Shown: positions 18,358 through 25,553 of the stretch, piece by piece
Numbering within the stretch: the first letter of the stretch is position 1
Layout of the letters: each line of letters begins with the position of its first letter
NCBI RefSeq assembly: GCF_027923545.1
Contig: NZ_BROH01000001.1
Location: 124,001-188,000, forward strand
From: Sinisalibacter aestuarii
GTDB lineage: Bacteria; Pseudomonadota; Alphaproteobacteria; Rhodobacterales; Rhodobacteraceae
Reading direction: 5' to 3'
DNA length: 64,000 nucleotides
Program-made: the position numbers and the translations under genes
The notes under the pieces: model-generated
Database searches by the model: none
What the model was told of the DNA's origin: nothing
The model's input: only the letters and a program-made list of their open reading frames with translations

Positions 18358-19288
18358 ATTTGCCCAGCTCTTCACCGGCCTCATCCTCGCCCTGCTCGGG
18401 GCGACCTTGCTGGCCTCTGCCCTGCGCCGCTGGTGGCCCGCCGCCGCGGGCGGGCAGAACATCATCGTCGAGACGCTGTTCGCCCGGATCAACGCCTGGT
18501 GGGCGATGGTCGTGCTGCTCTCCTTCGCCGCCTTCTTCGGGCGGCTGGGCATCGTCGTGCTGTTCCTGCTCGTCTCGTTCTCGGCCCTGCGCGAATTTCT
18601 GACGCTCACCCGCAAGCGGCGGGCCGATCACTGGGCGATGATGTTTTCCTTCTTCATCGCCCTGCCGCTGCAATATCTGCTGGTCTATATCGGGTCGGTG
18701 GGGCTCTTCACCATTTTCATCCCGGTCTATACTTTCCTGTTCCTGCCGGTGCTCGCGGTGATCCGGGGCGATACGTCGGGCTTTCTCAGCCGGGTGGCGG
18801 AAACGCAGTGGGCGCTGATGCTGACGATCTTCGCCGCGTCGCATGCCCCGGCCCTGCTGCTGCTTGAGATCGACGGCTACGAGGGCAAGCAGATCCTGCT
18901 GATCGCCTGGCTGGTGATCGTCGTACAGGCCGCCGACATCGCCCATTACATCGTGCCGCGCCTGATGGGGCGCACACGGATTGCGCCGTCACTGCCGCAT
19001 TCGCGCACATGGGAGGGCTTTCTGGGGGCACTGGGCGCGGGGGCCATCATCGGCACGGCTCTGAGCTGGGTGACGCCATTCGCGCCCTGGCAGGCGGCGA
19101 TCATGGCGATCGTCGTGGCGGTGCTTGGCTATGCCGGCGGCATGGTGATGGCGGCAATCAAGCGAGACAAGGGCGTGGTGGACTGGAGCCACCTGATCCC
19201 CGGCCAGGGCGGATTTATCGACCGGCTGGATTCGGTGGTCTTTTCCGCACCTCTGTTTTTCCACCTGGTGCGGTATTTCTGGACCTGA
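18344..19288 (+). CDS. Phosphatidate cytidylyltransferase-like membrane protein
   Basis: 314 residues with about eight membrane segments. The signature near the end, LPHSRTWEGFLGALGAGA followed by KRDKGVVDWSHLIPGQGG and DRLDSVVFSAPLFFH, is the CdsA/YnbB family motif with the metal-binding Asp residues. CdsA makes CDP-diacylglycerol from CTP and phosphatidate. This longer form (CdsA is usually 265-285) paired with a PlsC-like gene matches the YnbA/B-type arrangement. It starts inside the acyltransferase gene (14-base overlap). Confidence 0.82.
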   Translation: MAHVEFAQLFTGLILALLGATLLASALRRWWPAAAGGQNIIVETLFARINAWWAMVVLLSFAAFFGRLGIVVLFLLVSFSALREFLTLTRKRRADHWAMMFSFFIALPLQYLLVYIGSVGLFTIFIPVYTFLFLPVLAVIRGDTSGFLSRVAETQWALMLTIFAASHAPALLLLEIDGYEGKQILLIAWLVIVVQAADIAHYIVPRLMGRTRIAPSLPHSRTWEGFLGALGAGAIIGTALSWVTPFAPWQAAIMAIVVAVLGYAGGMVMAAIKRDKGVVDWSHLIPGQGGFIDRLDSVVFSAPLFFHLVRYFWT

Positions 19289-19317
19289 CCTTGCGGGACA
19301 GGCCCCGATTGCGGCGG

Positions 19318-19338
19318 GCAGGCCCCGGGTGGGCCTGC
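19318..19338. terminator. GC-rich hairpin between convergent genes
   Basis: GCAGGCCC and its exact complement GGGCCTGC flank a five-base loop in the 63-base gap between the CdsA-like gene and the small gene ending at 19352. No T-run follows on either strand, so it is only a possible bidirectional terminator. Confidence 0.35.
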
Positions 19339-19351
19339 GCCGCGCATCTGG

Positions 19352-19597
19352 TCAGGCCGCAGCGCTTTCGGCGGCGGTGTCGTTGTCATTCGCCGCAACC
19401 AGCGCGTGGCGGGTCGAGCGGAAGGCGACAACGTTGTTGCGGGCGATCAGCGGGGTCTCGCCATCGTTTGCATCGAAGGCGTTGTCGAAGATCGAGGTGA
19501 ACCGGCTGCGATGATGCGAGCGGTCGGCAGTGCCGAGCGAGGCGAGGGCGTTCAGGCGGCGTTGGCGGGCTTTTTCAATATAGCTGACGGTGGCCAT
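19352..19597 (-). CDS. Small protein, family A of a five-gene small-protein cluster
   Basis: 81 residues, preceded by CCAGGAG. The N-terminal part (YIEKARQRRLNALASLGTAD, then SIFDNAFD) matches the 72-residue product at 20300-20518, sharing KAR-x2-R, AL-x-L, ADRS and SIFD. The later part (ARNNVVAFRSTRHAL, AANDND) instead resembles the NNV motif of the family B proteins at 19657 and 20564, so this protein looks like an A/B hybrid. Highly basic N-terminal helix, no membrane segment or signal. Last gene of the cluster. I do not recognise the family. Confidence 0.6.
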   Translation of the reverse strand: MATVSYIEKARQRRLNALASLGTADRSHHRSRFTSIFDNAFDANDGETPLIARNNVVAFRSTRHALVAANDNDTAAESAAA

Positions 19598-19656
19598 GTC
19601 AGGATTCTCCTGGAATGTAGAGCCGCGTTCTGGCGGCGTGTTGGGGGGAAAGGCGA

Positions 19657-19851
19657 TCAGGCGACGTTGCCGTAGGTGAGCAGGACGCCGGTGGAAAAGA
19701 ACACGCCAGACGCGGTGCGGCGCGCACGGGGCCGGCTCTTCCATTCGCTGATCGAGACGACGTTGTTGCGGGTGCCCGCGGTGGTTTCGCGGCCGGTGAC
19801 GGCGCAGAGAGCGGCGCGGCGGGTGCGGTCGAAGGCGATGACGTTGTTCAT
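19657..19851 (-). CDS. Small protein, family B of a five-gene small-protein cluster
   Basis: 64 residues, preceded by GGGGAA at a good distance. It opens MNNVIAFDRTRRAAL, has a central RNNVVSISEW, and ends ASGVFFSTGVLLTYGNVA. The same three blocks in the same order occur in the 61-residue product at 20564 (NVIAF; NNVIPLADW; TGVFFTTRVLVAPGEIA), so they are paralogues. The protein is basic with no membrane segment. The alternation of short hydrophobic NNV-type strands and Arg-rich linkers suggests a small folded or partner-binding protein. Function unknown. Confidence 0.6.
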   Translation of the reverse strand: MNNVIAFDRTRRAALCAVTGRETTAGTRNNVVSISEWKSRPRARRTASGVFFSTGVLLTYGNVA

Positions 19852-19931
19852 TGTGTATTCCCCAGATCGTTTCGGCTTTGGGCCGGGATTGTTTCTGTAT
19901 TTGCTACTGCGCGAACGTGCCGGGCGTGGTA

Positions 19932-20108
19932 TTAAGCCGCCTGACGGATACGCTCTGCTGCAAAGTGCGCGTGGTCGAAGATGGATTCGATCTCCGCGCT
20001 GGTGATGGTGGGCAGACGCTTCATGCGATCCGTCCGGTTCACGCTGGCGCAAGGCTTCCTGAAAGGCAGGATCTTGGCGCTTTGTTGGAGGGTCATGGTG
20101 GCAGCCAT
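19932..20108 (-). CDS. Short protein (58 residues) of the small-protein cluster
   Basis: 58 residues, from an ATG preceded by CAGGAG with eight bases of spacing, to a TAA. The sequence starts MAATMTLQQSAKILPF and contains TITSAEIESIFDHAHFAAER. The SIFD block is shared with the family A products at 19352 and 20300, so it is probably a shortened or diverged family A member. It is easy to miss because it is under 60 codons, but its Shine-Dalgarno, the shared motif and its position in the gap of a same-strand cluster support it as real. Confidence 0.5.
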   Translation of the reverse strand: MAATMTLQQSAKILPFRKPCASVNRTDRMKRLPTITSAEIESIFDHAHFAAERIRQAA

Positions 20109-20174
20109 GGTCTTTCTCCTGTGGTCAGATTTCCGTTCCGATGTGGTCTAATTTCGAACCAGATTCGGGCGGTA

Positions 20175-20197
20175 TTTCTGCCGAAATGCGGCAGAAA
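20175..20197. promoter_or_regulatory. Perfect 9-bp inverted repeat inside the small-protein cluster
   Basis: TTTCTGCCG (20175-20183) and its exact complement CGGCAGAAA (20189-20197) flank five bases. It lies 67 bases upstream of the 58-residue gene and after the family A gene at 20300. Its core CCGAAATGCGGCA recurs exactly at 20918-20930, upstream of the first gene of the cluster. It may be an operator, or a hairpin in the transcript. Confidence 0.4.
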
Positions 20198-20299
20198 CGT
20201 GGTTTTTCATCTTTTCGACACCATGAGGCCGCACGGTCTGCCTGAAATGACCGCATCGGTGCCCCGTATGTGGCGCTCGCAGGGCAGCCGCGCTGCGGA

Positions 20300-20518
20300 T
20301 CAGGCCGCCATCGGGCCGCGCGTGGCGCGGTTCTGCGCGATCGCCTTGCCACGGTGCACGCGGCTGCGGATCGAGTGGAATTGCGGCACGGTCTGGCGCC
20401 GGTGCGCGACGCGATCGAAGATGGAAACCACACTGCGGTCATCAGCGGTGCGGGCGTTCAGAGCCGCCAGCGCGGCGCGGCGGCCTTCGCGGGCTTTGTC
20501 GGCGAGGGTCATGGTCAT
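20300..20518 (-). CDS. Small protein, family A (second copy) of the small-protein cluster
   Basis: 72 residues, preceded by CGGAGACC. It begins MTMTLADKAREGRRAALAAL and continues with RTADDRSVVSIFDRVAHRR, closely matching the N-terminal half of the product at 19352 (KAR, AL-x-L, ADRS, SIFD). Its C-terminal half is Arg/His-rich and unlike the paralogue. No membrane segment or signal. It follows the family B gene at 20564 by 45 bases, the same B-then-A order as the 19851/19597 pair. Confidence 0.6.
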   Translation of the reverse strand: MTMTLADKAREGRRAALAALNARTADDRSVVSIFDRVAHRRQTVPQFHSIRSRVHRGKAIAQNRATRGPMAA

Positions 20519-20563
20519 ATCGGTCTCCGTTTTATTAAGTATGCTGCGGTTTGCTTGAAGAAT

Positions 20564-20749
20564 TCAGGCGATCTCGCCCGGCGCGACAAGCACCCGCGTG
20601 GTGAAGAAAACGCCCGTCGGCGTGCGGTGCGGCATCGCCCGGCCCAGCCAGTCAGCCAGCGGGATGACGTTGTTTTGCCCCCGGTACGGCGCCCGGCTGC
20701 GACGCGGTCGGGCGGGCCGCGCGGTGAAGGCGATCACATTCGTTTGCAT
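20564..20749 (-). CDS. Small protein, family B (second copy) of the small-protein cluster
   Basis: 61 residues from an ATG preceded by GGGGAGAG; a longer frame to 20782 lacks support. It reads MQTNVIAFTARPARPRRSRA, then QNNVIPLADWLGR, and ends TGVFFTTRVLVAPGEIA, aligning block by block with the product at 19657. Even the DNA around the stop codons is alike (TCAGGCGA in both). First gene of the cluster in transcription order. Upstream, 20750-21032 holds no supported gene; the CCGAAATGCGGCA repeat is the only notable element there. Confidence 0.6.
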   Translation of the reverse strand: MQTNVIAFTARPARPRRSRAPYRGQNNVIPLADWLGRAMPHRTPTGVFFTTRVLVAPGEIA

Positions 20750-21032
20750 GGTTCTCTCCCCAAGGGTCAGCGCGTCGCGCAAACCACAACCTGGCGTTTA
20801 GTCTGGATGAGTGCTGCCGGTTTCCGGCGGGCGCCCCGTGGGGCGGGCGGCTTTGCCGCGCACCGGAATTTGCGTCCGGCAAGATGATATTCCCGCGTGA
20901 TTCCGGCGTCGACGGCACCGAAATGCGGCAAGATTTAGCCGAAACGCGCGGAATTTACCGAGATTGCCGGATCATGAACGGGCGCGCCGCCCCAATCAGG
21001 CGCGGCGCGCGAGTCGGGCGATTCCCCGCCGC

Positions 21033-22664
21033 TTACGGATACCAGGCCAGATCCTGCCCCTCGGGCCAGGACAGCTCGACCATGATCGAAACCTCCGCCG
21101 TCTCGCCCGGCGCGATGGTTAGATCCCAGGCCGAAACGCCACGCTGGCGCTCAAGGTCGGTCTCGCTCGGCGACGGCGAGGCGGTGACCTTCACTTTCAG
21201 GTCTTCCTGCTCGGAATAGGTCAGCGGGAAGATCGCCCGCACCTGCTGCGCCTCGCCGGTCAGGTTCTCGACGGTGAAGGTAATCGCCTGATCGCGGGTG
21301 TTGGACCTGGCGATCAGCCCGGTATCGCCCTCGGCGTTGCGCTCGAAGATCGTGTCGAGGCGGATACCCTCGATCGGGCCAAAGCCCAGCTCGGTTTCGG
21401 CGCCCGCCGGGATCAGCTCGATCATCTGGCGGCCCACCAGATGCCCGTCGCGCAGGATATTGGCCCAGCCGGGCAGGATCGGCTCGCCCGCGGTGTTGGT
21501 GAAGCTGGCCACGGTGAAGGCGGTTTCGTCATAGCGCGGGCTGGCATGGACCGCCGGGGTGGCGTCGAGCGTGAGCGCATCGAGCGCCAGCTCCGCCGCC
21601 TCACCCGCCGCGATGGTGACCGCCTCGGGATAGACGTAGGAGAGCGCAAGCCCATCCACCTCAAGCGCGGCGGTTTTCATCGCGGCATCGGCCAGCATCG
21701 GCTCCGGCATCGGCGCGGCCCCCGCCACCATGTCGGATTCCGCCTGCGCCATGGTGCGGCTGAGGGTGATGGGCTCATGAATACGCGCCTGATCGGGCGA
21801 GACCGGCGAGGGCATCACCTCTTCGCCGGGGCGCGCGGTCGAGAGGGTAAGCGCGACGCCATCCCATGTCTGGCCGGTTTCCTGCACCACGATGACCTTG
21901 CGGGCGATGTCGAGGGCGCCCGCGTCACGGTCAAGGTCGAGGTCGTAATCCATCTCCCACCAGGCGCTCTGCGAAAGCTCGGTCAGTTCCAGCGTCACCG
22001 GCCCCGCCTCGGCAACGACCACCTCGACGCTGAGCAGATCGGCGGTGTCGCCCGGCGGCGACAGGCGGTCGAATTCGGCCTGAGCGGCGGCGAGCGCGGC
22101 GGCCAACTCGTCACGCTCTTCTTGCAGCGGGCGCAGGGCGGCGGTTGCCGTCACCAGAGCGGTTTGCGCGGCCTGTGTCTCGCGCTGGAGCATGTCGGCC
22201 AGCGCCACGATGTCTTCGCCGCTCGCCGCCTCGCCGGGCGCGACCTGACCGAGAAAGGCCAGCCGCGCCTTCAGAGCGGCTGCCTCGGCGCCGGTTGTGG
22301 CGATCTCGTCATCCTTGGCGGCGATGTCGGCGGTAAGGTAATCAATCCGGCCAAAAGCGGCAGCCTGCGCCTCGGTAAACAAGGCTTCGCGGTCAATCGC
22401 CATGTCGCGCTGAAAGCCAAGCGTGCCGATGCTCACGCCGTCGCTGGTGCGGATACGCGGCAGCGAACCCAACCCGTCCAGCCCGGCATAGGGCAGAAAC
22501 ACCCGGTGCGTGCCCGCCGGCAGCTCCACCGTGGCGCGGTGCACCATTTCGGCCCCGGCGGGATAGACCGTCACGGCGGCAACGGGCGCCTGGGTATAGA
22601 CATCGTCGGCCAGCGCCGGACAGGCGGCGGCAAGGGCAAGAAACGAGGTGGCAAGAACGCGCAT
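21033..22664 (-). CDS. MuiA-like protein (DUF4140 + DUF4139), secreted
   Basis: 543 residues. A signal peptide (MRVLATSFLALAAACPALAD) leads to the periplasm or outside. The DUF4140 domain follows (VAAVTVYPAGAEMVHRATVE, VFLPYAGLDG), then a helical coiled-coil stretch at about residues 100-210, then the C-terminal DUF4139 beta domain (DYDLDLDRDAGALDIARKVI onward, ending SIMVELSWPEGQDLAW). Relatives are labelled mucoidy inhibitor A or conserved hypothetical; the biochemical role is unknown. It stands alone on the minus strand between the small-protein cluster and asd. Confidence 0.82.
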   Translation of the reverse strand: MRVLATSFLALAAACPALADDVYTQAPVAAVTVYPAGAEMVHRATVELPAGTHRVFLPYAGLDGLGSLPRIRTSDGVSIGTLGFQRDMAIDREALFTEAQAAAFGRIDYLTADIAAKDDEIATTGAEAAALKARLAFLGQVAPGEAASGEDIVALADMLQRETQAAQTALVTATAALRPLQEERDELAAALAAAQAEFDRLSPPGDTADLLSVEVVVAEAGPVTLELTELSQSAWWEMDYDLDLDRDAGALDIARKVIVVQETGQTWDGVALTLSTARPGEEVMPSPVSPDQARIHEPITLSRTMAQAESDMVAGAAPMPEPMLADAAMKTAALEVDGLALSYVYPEAVTIAAGEAAELALDALTLDATPAVHASPRYDETAFTVASFTNTAGEPILPGWANILRDGHLVGRQMIELIPAGAETELGFGPIEGIRLDTIFERNAEGDTGLIARSNTRDQAITFTVENLTGEAQQVRAIFPLTYSEQEDLKVKVTASPSPSETDLERQRGVSAWDLTIAPGETAEVSIMVELSWPEGQDLAWYP

Positions 22665-22876: not shown

Positions 22877-23899
22877 TCAGCCCTTTTTCAGCACTTCGCG
22901 GCCCAGCAGCTCGGCAATCTGCACCGCGTTCAGCGCCGCGCCTTTGCGCAGGTTATCGGAGACGCACCACAGGTTGAGCCCGTTCTCGATGGTCGGGTCT
23001 TGCCGGATGCGGCTGATGAAGGTGGCGTAATCGCCCACGCATTCCACCGGGGTCACGTAGCCGCCGTCTTCGCGCTTGTCGACGACGAGGATGCCCGGCG
23101 CTTCACGCAGGATATCGCGCGCTTCGTCTTCATCGAGGAAATCTTCGAACTCGATATTCACCGCTTCCGAATGGCCGACAAAGACCGGCACCCGCACACA
23201 GGTGGCCGTGATCCTGATCGCCGGGTCGACGATCTTCTTGGTTTCGGCGACCATCTTCCATTCTTCCTTGGTCGAGCCATCTTCCATGAACACGTCGATA
23301 TGCGGAATCACGTTGAAGGCGATCTGCTTGGTGAACTTGGCGGGATCTTTCTCCTGACCCGGCACATACATGCCCTTGGTCTGCTCCCACAGCTCGTCCA
23401 TGCCTTCCTTGCCGGCACCGGAAACCGACTGGTAGGTGCTCACCACCACCCGCTTGATCTTCGCGCGGTCATGCAACGGCTTCAGCGCCACCACCATCTG
23501 CGCGGTCGAGCAGTTGGGATTGGCGATGATGTTCTTCTTCGCATAGCCGTGGATCGCCTGCGGGTTCACCTCCGGCACGATCAGCGGAATGTCGGGGTCG
23601 TAGCGGTAGAGCGACGAATTGTCGATCACGGTGCAACCGGCGGCGGCGGCCTTCGGCGCATAATCCTTCGTCGCCGCCGAGCCCACGGCGAACAGCGCCA
23701 TGTCCCAGCCGGTGAAATCGAAAGTGGCGAGGTCCTGGGTCTTGATCGTCTTGTCGCCAAAGCTGACTTCGGTGCCCAGCGAGCGGCGGCTCGCCAGCGC
23801 GGCGATCTCGTCGACGGGGAACTGGCGCTCGGCCAGGATGTTCAGCATTTCGCGGCCCACGTTGCCCGTGGCGCCGACGACAACGACTCTGTAGCCCAT
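22877..23899 (-). CDS. asd: Aspartate-semialdehyde dehydrogenase
   Basis: 340 residues from the ATG after AAAGGAG; the much longer open frame upstream has no support. Asd reduces aspartyl phosphate to the semialdehyde, the branch point to lysine/diaminopimelate, threonine and methionine. Visible: the NADP-binding VVGATGNVGREML at the N-terminus, the active-site Cys in NPNCSTAQMV, and the catalytic His in PVFVGHSEAVN. A cytosolic dimer or tetramer is expected. It has its own terminator and is transcribed alone. Confidence 0.95.
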   Translation of the reverse strand: MGYRVVVVGATGNVGREMLNILAERQFPVDEIAALASRRSLGTEVSFGDKTIKTQDLATFDFTGWDMALFAVGSAATKDYAPKAAAAGCTVIDNSSLYRYDPDIPLIVPEVNPQAIHGYAKKNIIANPNCSTAQMVVALKPLHDRAKIKRVVVSTYQSVSGAGKEGMDELWEQTKGMYVPGQEKDPAKFTKQIAFNVIPHIDVFMEDGSTKEEWKMVAETKKIVDPAIRITATCVRVPVFVGHSEAVNIEFEDFLDEDEARDILREAPGILVVDKREDGGYVTPVECVGDYATFISRIRQDPTIENGLNLWCVSDNLRKGAALNAVQIAELLGREVLKKG

Positions 23900-24263
23900 T
23901 GGGGTCTCCTTTATATGAGTCTGGTCAGACCAGGGGCGCTGATACCTCAATCGCCGTAGCGGTGAAAGGGGCGTTGATTCACGTTGACTTAAGCGCCACA
24001 TGCTGTGATGAGAGCGCATCGCTCCGGCGGCCGCGTGAGCCGCCCGCCGCTTTGAACAAGCAATAAGAGTGCGGCACGGCGCGATGAGCACGGACGCGAT
24101 GGGCGTCCAGACAGGTTCCCAAATCACGCGGGGGGTCACCGGGCCGGACGGCGGCAGGGCAAGCGCTCTGCGGCGAGGCTGGGCCCGATCCAACTCGACG
24201 CCAGGGCGCATCCGCGCGCCCCGGCCCCCTTGCATGCGGCCAATGCGCCGCGGAAAGACATAT
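23900..24263 (+). other. 364-base gap between asd and rhlE, probable long rhlE leader
   Basis: No gene is supported here. The asd side contains the 13-base palindrome CTGGTCAGACCAG (23921-23933), placed where an asd operator could lie. The rhlE side is GC-rich and has several local stems, for example GGACGC/GCGTCC at 24092-24108, and a G-run near 24130. Cold-induced DEAD-box helicase genes often have long structured leaders, so an untranslated rhlE leader is plausible, but the transcription start cannot be fixed from sequence. Confidence 0.35.
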
Positions 24264-25553
24264 ATGACAACGTTTCAATCCCTCGGGCTCTCCCCGAAAC
24301 TGCTCGATGCGGTCAAGGCCGCCGGCTATGACGCACCCACCCCGATCCAGCTCAAGGCGATCCCGCCGGTGCTGGAGGGGCGTGACGTGATGGGCCTGGC
24401 CCAGACCGGCACCGGCAAAACCGCCGCCTTCGGCCTGCCGCTGATCCACCAGCTCATGCATCGCCACGACAAACGGGTGCCGAAGACGGCACGCGCGCTC
24501 GTGCTCGCCCCCACCCGCGAACTGGTCAACCAGATCGCCGACAACCTCGCGCTCTACGTCAAGGGCACGCATATGAAGGTGGTCACCGTGGTGGGCGGCG
24601 TCTCGATCAACCGCCAGGCCAATGCGCTCGCCAAGGGCACCGACATTCTCGTCGCCACGCCGGGCCGGCTGATCGACCTGATGGATCGGGGCGATGTGCG
24701 GCTCGACGCCGCCACCTTCCTCGTGCTCGACGAGGCCGACCACATGCTCGATATGGGCTTCATCCACGCCCTGCGCCGGATCGCGCCGAAGCTCGGCCAT
24801 CCGCGCCAGACCATGCTGTTCTCGGCCACCATGCCGAAAGACATGGAAGAGATCGCCGGCGCCTATCTGCATAACCCGGTGCGGGTGCAGGTCTCGCCGC
24901 CGGGCAAGGCCGCCGACAAGATCACCCAGGGCGTGCACTGGGCGCAGAGCAAGGACGACAAGGTCTCGCTGCTCAAGAGGTATCTTGCCGATGCGCCCGA
25001 TGGCCTCGCGCTCGTCTTCGCACGCACCAAGCATGGCGCCGAGCGGCTCAAGAAGCACCTCGTCGCCGAGGGCTTCGATGCGGTTTCAATCCACGGCAAC
25101 AAGAGCCAGGGTCAGCGTGAGCGGGCGCTGGCGAGCTTCCGTGACGGCGGCACGCCGATCCTCGTCGCCACCGATGTGGCCGCGCGCGGGATTGACATTC
25201 CGGGCGTCAGCCACGTCTACAATTTCGATCTGCCGGAAGTGGCCGAGAACTACGTGCACCGCATCGGCCGGACGGCACGCGCGGGCGCGGATGGTGATGC
25301 CATCGCTCTCGTCACCGGCGAGGATATCGGGCTGCTGCGCCAGATCGAGAAGCTGATGAAGATTGAAATCCCGGTTCTGGGCGGCGAACGCCCCGCCGAA
25401 GTCGATCCGCCGAAGCGGCAGGGCCGGGGCGGTGGCGCTGGCGCTGGGGGCAACCGCCGCCGTGGCCCGAAGCCCACCAATGCGCAATCCAAGCCGCAGG
25501 GTCAGGGACAGGGCCAGAAGCGCCGCCGCCCGCGCCGCCGCAAAGCGGCCTGA
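24264..25553 (+). CDS. rhlE: DEAD-box RNA helicase, RhlE type
   Basis: 429 residues. All core motifs are present: Q motif [12 protein letters not shown], motif I AQTGTGKT, Ia PTRELVNQ, Ib [53 protein letters not shown] basic, Gly/Arg-rich tail of about 60 residues ([18 protein letters not shown]) would add RNA affinity. RhlE-type helicases act in ribosome maturation and RNA decay, especially in the cold. The start ATG has only a weak Shine-Dalgarno and follows a long leader, consistent with post-transcriptional control. Confidence 0.9.

Follow-up and report, generated by a model that had tools for sequence, protein, structure and literature searches.

A duplicated operon of small, often alanine-ended proteins behind a direct-repeat element in Rhodobacteraceae

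Five very short reading frames follow one another in the genome of Sinisalibacter aestuarii: are they genes and, if so, what kind of system do they form? We addressed this question for a window of 64,000 nucleotides, the whole stretch of DNA analysed, to which all positions refer. In line with the first-pass annotation, which had described five small same-strand genes in the order B'-A'-C-B-A, all five frames lie on the minus strand and encode 58-81 residues: B1 (20564..20749, 61 aa), A1 (20300..20518, 72 aa), C (19932..20108, 58 aa), B2 (19657..19851, 64 aa) and A2 (19352..19597, 81 aa), with A1, C and A2 ending in two alanines. The gaps B1-A1, A1-C, C-B2 and B2-A2 measure 45, 191, 80 and 59 nt. 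A purine-rich, Shine-Dalgarno-like stretch stands ahead of each frame (judged by eye), as had been claimed. The upstream neighbours, a DUF4139/DUF4140 protein and asd, are encoded on the same strand, and the downstream neighbours, a CTP-transferase-family (CdsA-like) gene, an acyltransferase and carbonic anhydrase, on the opposite one. Some details of the earlier description had to be adjusted. The shared B blocks are present, but the second reads NNV[IV]-x3-[DE]W rather than having x2; for the A proteins AL-x2-L is the better motif than AL-x-L, and ADRS is restricted to A2 (A1 has DDRS). The label basic fits B1, A1, C and B2 (calculated pI 12.0, 12.0, 10.3 and 11.7) but not A2, which with a pI of 8.4 is nearly neutral. 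The NNVVAF block noted in A2 was confirmed, and the A2 copies of the four relatives carrying the full array retain it in the form [ST]NV[IV][AP]F.

The genome belongs to the same genus as Maritimibacter sp. HL-12, and a search of this genus detected B in six of seven genomes, our own counted. The full B-A-C-B-A array is found in four of the six other genomes and B-A-C in one more, B1 (B profile), A1 behind it (A profile) and C being kept in these five and the second B and A copies in four; the sixth genome, which is 73% complete, gave no match. Mean pN/pS of the five orthologue sets is 0.58-0.71, with single pairs ranging from 0.25 to 1.11, and by this measure amino-acid change is moderately selected against. 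It had been proposed to regard the frames as chance if homologues beyond close strains and purifying selection were both lacking; homologues were found in eight other genera, all within one GTDB family, and purifying selection, if moderate, is apparent. Chance reading frames could be argued from pN/pS values merely moderately below 1, with single pairs up to 1.11. Against this, order, frames, invariant residues and alanine ends are kept in five other genomes of the genus and again in 12 loci of eight other genera, which makes chance scarcely credible and refutes it as far as sequence can tell. Judged by this conservation, the five frames are genes.

No family had been recognised at first pass, and this held in our searches, which gave no convincing match in Pfam, NCBIfam, PHROGs, PADLOC or PDB. 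The five window proteins reached a best E of 0.026 in Pfam (below the curated cut-off) and 0.04 in PHROGs and had no match in NCBIfam, while ten further members reached at best 0.05 in Pfam and 0.11 in NCBIfam. Among solved structures no relatives of A and C were found, and B had six chance matches (E 0.47-0.7). Structured RNAs of Rfam gave 0 matches in 19200-21100. In the accessible, largely non-subscription literature on Rhodobacteraceae small proteins, Maritimibacter, ChvI in Rhodobacterales, CenR and ClpXP signals, we found no description of the A, B or C genes.

Using the B profile, matches were obtained in 13 of 390 genomes of the order and in 8 of 139 genera, our own genus counted; a repeat of the search took the same 390 genomes and gave the same 13. 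An earlier sample of the family, with a B match in 4 of 149 genomes, adds a ninth genus (G132). A class-wide sample of 289 genomes contained nothing else credible outside the family; its sole match there (E 6.6e-4) carries an internal stop and was taken as noise. This left 12 loci outside the genus (L044-L055) in eight other genera. As to whether A and B co-occur and stay adjacent in relatives, A is the gene immediately after B at all 12. With an A profile built from the genus alone, 11 of these score E <0.01; the A of L052 (E 0.83) was assigned by position and motif. A C-type gene precedes B in four of the 12 loci, from three genera. With a genus-only profile, C of L050 matches at E 0.0024 and that of L052 at E 0.056, and those of L053 and L055 were assigned by position and motif, L055 reaching E 0.07 with a widened C profile. 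Since C-type genes stand ahead of B outside the genus as well, the ancestral unit is likely C-B-A, and the window would hold B1-A1 plus a full C-B2-A2. The earlier reading as a duplicated module thus stands for the two paralogous B-A pairs plus C, but the unit appears to be C-B-A rather than B-A plus a stray short gene. In FastTree trees the six B1 proteins group together (support 0.88), as do all genus A proteins (0.98), among which A1 (0.70) and A2 (0.84) are separate; B2 is poorly resolved, and L054 and L055 fall near it. The grouping of B1, A1 and A2 suggests that the duplication probably predates the split of the genus. The near-identical L049 was omitted in favour of L046 from alignments A4 and A5.

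The relationship between A and B themselves appears closer than described. Comparison of the B and A profiles by hhalign gave P 0.0015 but a probability of 16.6%; the real score was reached by 0 of 100 column shuffles for B-A and 2 of 100 for A-C, and by 36 of 100 for B and C, which is not significant. Further, three tandem proteins at L107:2176-3110 combine an A-like start (KDFI..AR.RRL.AL) with a C-like end (LP.LT...DA.F). Because the profiles share a weak core and L107 has such hybrids, A and B are probably related rather than separate families. The A profile matches 76 of the 390 genomes at E up to 0.1, many of these matches being too weak to count. From these 76, 17 places in 15 genomes were retrieved, and A-like small frames were found again at all 17, in tandem in L103 and L105 (two each) and L107 (three). 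The tandem short A-like pairs of L103 and L105 lie in genera where no B was found.

The chromosomal position is recurrent too. Eight of the 12 loci adjoin asd, carbonic anhydrase or both, as in the window, several of them also having M17 peptidase and NlpC genes; L045, L051, L054 and L055 are without an asd or carbonic anhydrase neighbourhood. Carbonic anhydrase is present in 74 of 81 genomes, and the A, B and C profiles were run over 40 carbonic-anhydrase loci. Three matches at E <0.1 were obtained (L145, L146 and L160), each in the slot from asd to carbonic anhydrase. Delimited by hand, which was possible in 32 of the 40 loci, this slot accounts for about 10% of the scanned DNA. Weaker matches (E 0.6-2) fall both within and outside the slot, which in the majority of the 40 loci contains nothing recognisable. 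By eye, L148 shows an A-like start in the slot, and in L105, from the other locus set, two A-like genes and a C-like frame adjoin carbonic anhydrase. The slots of L145 and L148 also contain a pair of similar frames of 107-115 residues, neither A, B nor C, and the L148 member of this pair stands behind a match to the element described below.

A common sequence element was found ahead of the operons by a motif search in 22 upstream regions, with one site per sequence forced and L048 and L049 left out as near-identical to L046. The motif reads AC..TTT.GCC.CAATT..G..C.ATT..CGCC.GAAT. On the minus strand of the window it occurs at 20897..20934, about 150 nt ahead of B1 (element of B1-A1; 25.1 bits, E 5.8e-6 with a sequence-only model), and at 20160..20200, ending 54 nt ahead of C (element of C-B2-A2; 29.9 bits, E 1.6e-7), both sites being part of the training set. 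Its placement is nearly fixed: it stands 50-57 nt ahead of C in all ten C-bearing operons examined (51-57 nt in six genus operons, L050, L052 and L053, and 50 nt in L055) and 144-155 nt ahead of B1. In L044-L047, 195-252 nt separate the element from B without a clear C gene, and this spacer may be either a decayed C or an untranslated leader. Both window elements, like all 12 of the genus, end in GANTC. Twenty elements were used for periodicity and GCC tests, L051 and L054 being excluded as weak sites (weak motif sites also include L047, at 14.4, against 10.5 for L054). They show a period of 11 bp (z 10.5 at 11 and 7.9 at 22), for which shuffles are not a fair null because the motif finder itself chose the 20 sites, one forced per sequence.

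Locus L146, an independent case outside the motif and periodicity sets, matches the element model at E 3e-4. Three 11-bp units can be made out there by eye, and a C/B-like frame begins 51 nt further on; this locus illustrates how position and promoter can reveal diverged members where sequence similarity is weak. In the 40 carbonic-anhydrase loci the model had one other match (L148, E 0.027), with an unrelated frame behind it, and among the 17 loci (L098-L114) that have A-like frames and lie outside the B-bearing set L107 alone gave an element match, a weak one (E 0.059). Genome-wide, the two array sites of our own genome score 2.1e-6 and 7.7e-5 and the next site 0.038, while the best match beyond the array in HL-12 has E 0.0014. 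Further members of a regulon were sought among the 26 element matches of these two genomes, four of which are at arrays: running the A, B and C profiles over the loci of 12 of the 22 others and of a separate DNA match, L002, yielded a best E of 0.0079, inside a long frame of L131, which was not counted.

Which regulator might read such an element? OmpR-family regulators are described, in the accessible part of the source, as often binding direct repeats whose half-sites are about 10 bp apart (PMC9275681), and a regulator of this class is likely by analogy. In our genome a 233-aa OmpR-type regulator is clustered with a kinase and hprK. hprK is present in 13 of 13 genomes, and all ten hprK loci retrieved also encode an OmpR-type regulator whose start is the same. 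By its gene order this regulator is a putative ChvI, which is no more than a candidate for binding the element. In the ten chvI loci, cmsearch found one match (L197, chvI-pckA gap, E 0.055), which lies on the opposite strand. Position weight matrix ranks in the chvI promoters were 1, 1, 2, 2, 2, 5, 9, 18, 30 and 42 of about 23,000-25,000 positions, at low scores and with AT-rich gaps possibly favoured. Assuming autoregulation, these ten promoters thus hold no clear match to the element. Repeated GTTAGCGCAACC-type boxes occur in most of the chvI-pckA gaps of L195-L204. The ChvI box of Sinorhizobium (S. meliloti) is given as N-GCC-N8-GCC in the text available (PMC9731502). Of the 20 elements, none contains the strict form GCC-N8-GCC, 14 contain GCC-N19-GCC and 12 contain GCC-N8-GC; for Caulobacter, the published motif is TTGC-N3-GCAA, as far as the accessible text goes. 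CenR and NtrX were set aside, their motifs as found in accessible text (TGA-N8-TGA and GCA-N9-TGC) being unlike the element by eye.

The protein ends are the second shared feature. Two terminal alanines are found in 22 of 22 A, 10 of 22 B and 8 of 10 C proteins, and a single final alanine in 22 of 22 B and 9 of 10 C, compared with 5 (AA) and 72 (A) of 462 background frames of at least 150 aa, which were picked mechanically and may include antisense frames. The tmRNA of the same genome encodes the tag ANDNRAPIALAA, ending in LAA. In the available parts of the reports, the terminal alanines of CtrA are a proteolysis signal and those of MopJ are so read (PMC4433202, PMC4432633). By analogy the AA end looks like a ClpXP destruction signal. 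AlphaFold gave a mean pLDDT of 52 for B2 and of 67 for A1, the latter with one confident helix (5-25); the alignments comprised 11 sequences, and low pLDDT may stem from such thin alignments.

Taken together, the array is best explained as the duplicated form of an undescribed operon, an account that as a whole we put forward tentatively. An OmpR/PhoB-type response regulator would bind the tandem 11-bp direct repeats and switch the operon on. C-B-A would then yield three small, mostly disordered proteins, A with one N-terminal helix and A and B with a short common C-terminal core, which may act as small adaptors or modulators, touching partner proteins via short motifs. With their alanine ends they would be ClpXP substrates and, as such, would vanish soon after the signal stops. 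Observed directly are the genes with their order, distribution and duplication, the element at its fixed distance and the invariant AA end of A; we infer regulator type, ClpXP turnover and adaptor role. A signal-induced, two-component pulse of labile, disordered adaptors cleared by ClpXP is nonetheless the reading we rate highest, while holding it short of probable.

Ranked second, and rather unlikely in our estimate, are small basic nucleic-acid binders, that is, RNA chaperones or nucleoid-associated peptides like the DUF1127 protein CcaF1. Median pI values of 11.6 (B), 11.0 (A) and 10.1 (C) would suit this role, and CcaF1 of Rhodobacter sphaeroides is described in the available text as a small RNA-binding protein (PMC10253847). 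However, the lowest pI values are 6.5 for B, 4.6 for A and 5.6 for C, window A2 lies at 8.4, and neither DUF1127 nor any other nucleic-acid-binding family was matched. Timing by the cell cycle, through CcrM methylation of promoter GANTC sites combined with AA ends, would resemble MopJ of Caulobacter, for which the accessible text gives a methylated promoter bound by GcrA together with a pair of terminal alanines (PMC4432633). GANTC is found in 12 of 12 genus elements, but outside the genus in 3 of 8 (L044, L046 and L055), and we consider such timing improbable. Still less probable is a small toxin-antitoxin or anti-phage module. Small, neighbouring and duplicated genes are what one would expect of it, yet the five proteins had no match in PADLOC, 8 of 12 loci lie in one chromosomal neighbourhood, and a search for a mobile origin, which compared B2 and one A with plasmids, one B with phages and the B alignment with viral contigs, found no copy beyond one chance match (E 0.5).

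The pulse of labile adaptors can also be placed in a wider frame, which as a joint claim we consider doubtful. C, B and A would be members of a superfamily of disordered micro-proteins in Rhodobacteraceae that is large, fast-evolving and unannotated, with interchangeable motifs (KARxxRxxAL helix, NVVS, LPxxT...F, FFxS), a ClpXP signal, a direct-repeat promoter and often a place in the asd-carbonic anhydrase slot, and would serve pulse regulation of a core machine under envelope or cell-cycle signals. Proteins this small are easily overlooked by annotation. If the pulse reading is true, one group of marine bacteria would possess a regulatory operon of its own, with products made to be short-lived. 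Since the order of the genes, the element ahead of them and the protein ends persist across nine genera, a knock-out, a reporter or a half-life test should be directly interpretable.

Compared with known systems, the array resembles ChvI-controlled genes in its direct repeats with GCC and their 11-bp period but differs in lacking their strict GCC-N8-GCC box (0 of 20 elements). With the ClpXP substrates CtrA and MopJ the A, B and C proteins have the AA end in common, as in the tmRNA tag of their own genome, whereas they are far smaller and without a recognised domain. The DUF1127 small proteins of Alphaproteobacteria such as CcaF1, which are regulatory according to the accessible literature, are similar in size and basic charge; in contrast to them, the five window proteins and ten further members have no DUF1127 match in Pfam or NCBIfam and come from a three-gene operon with an element of its own.
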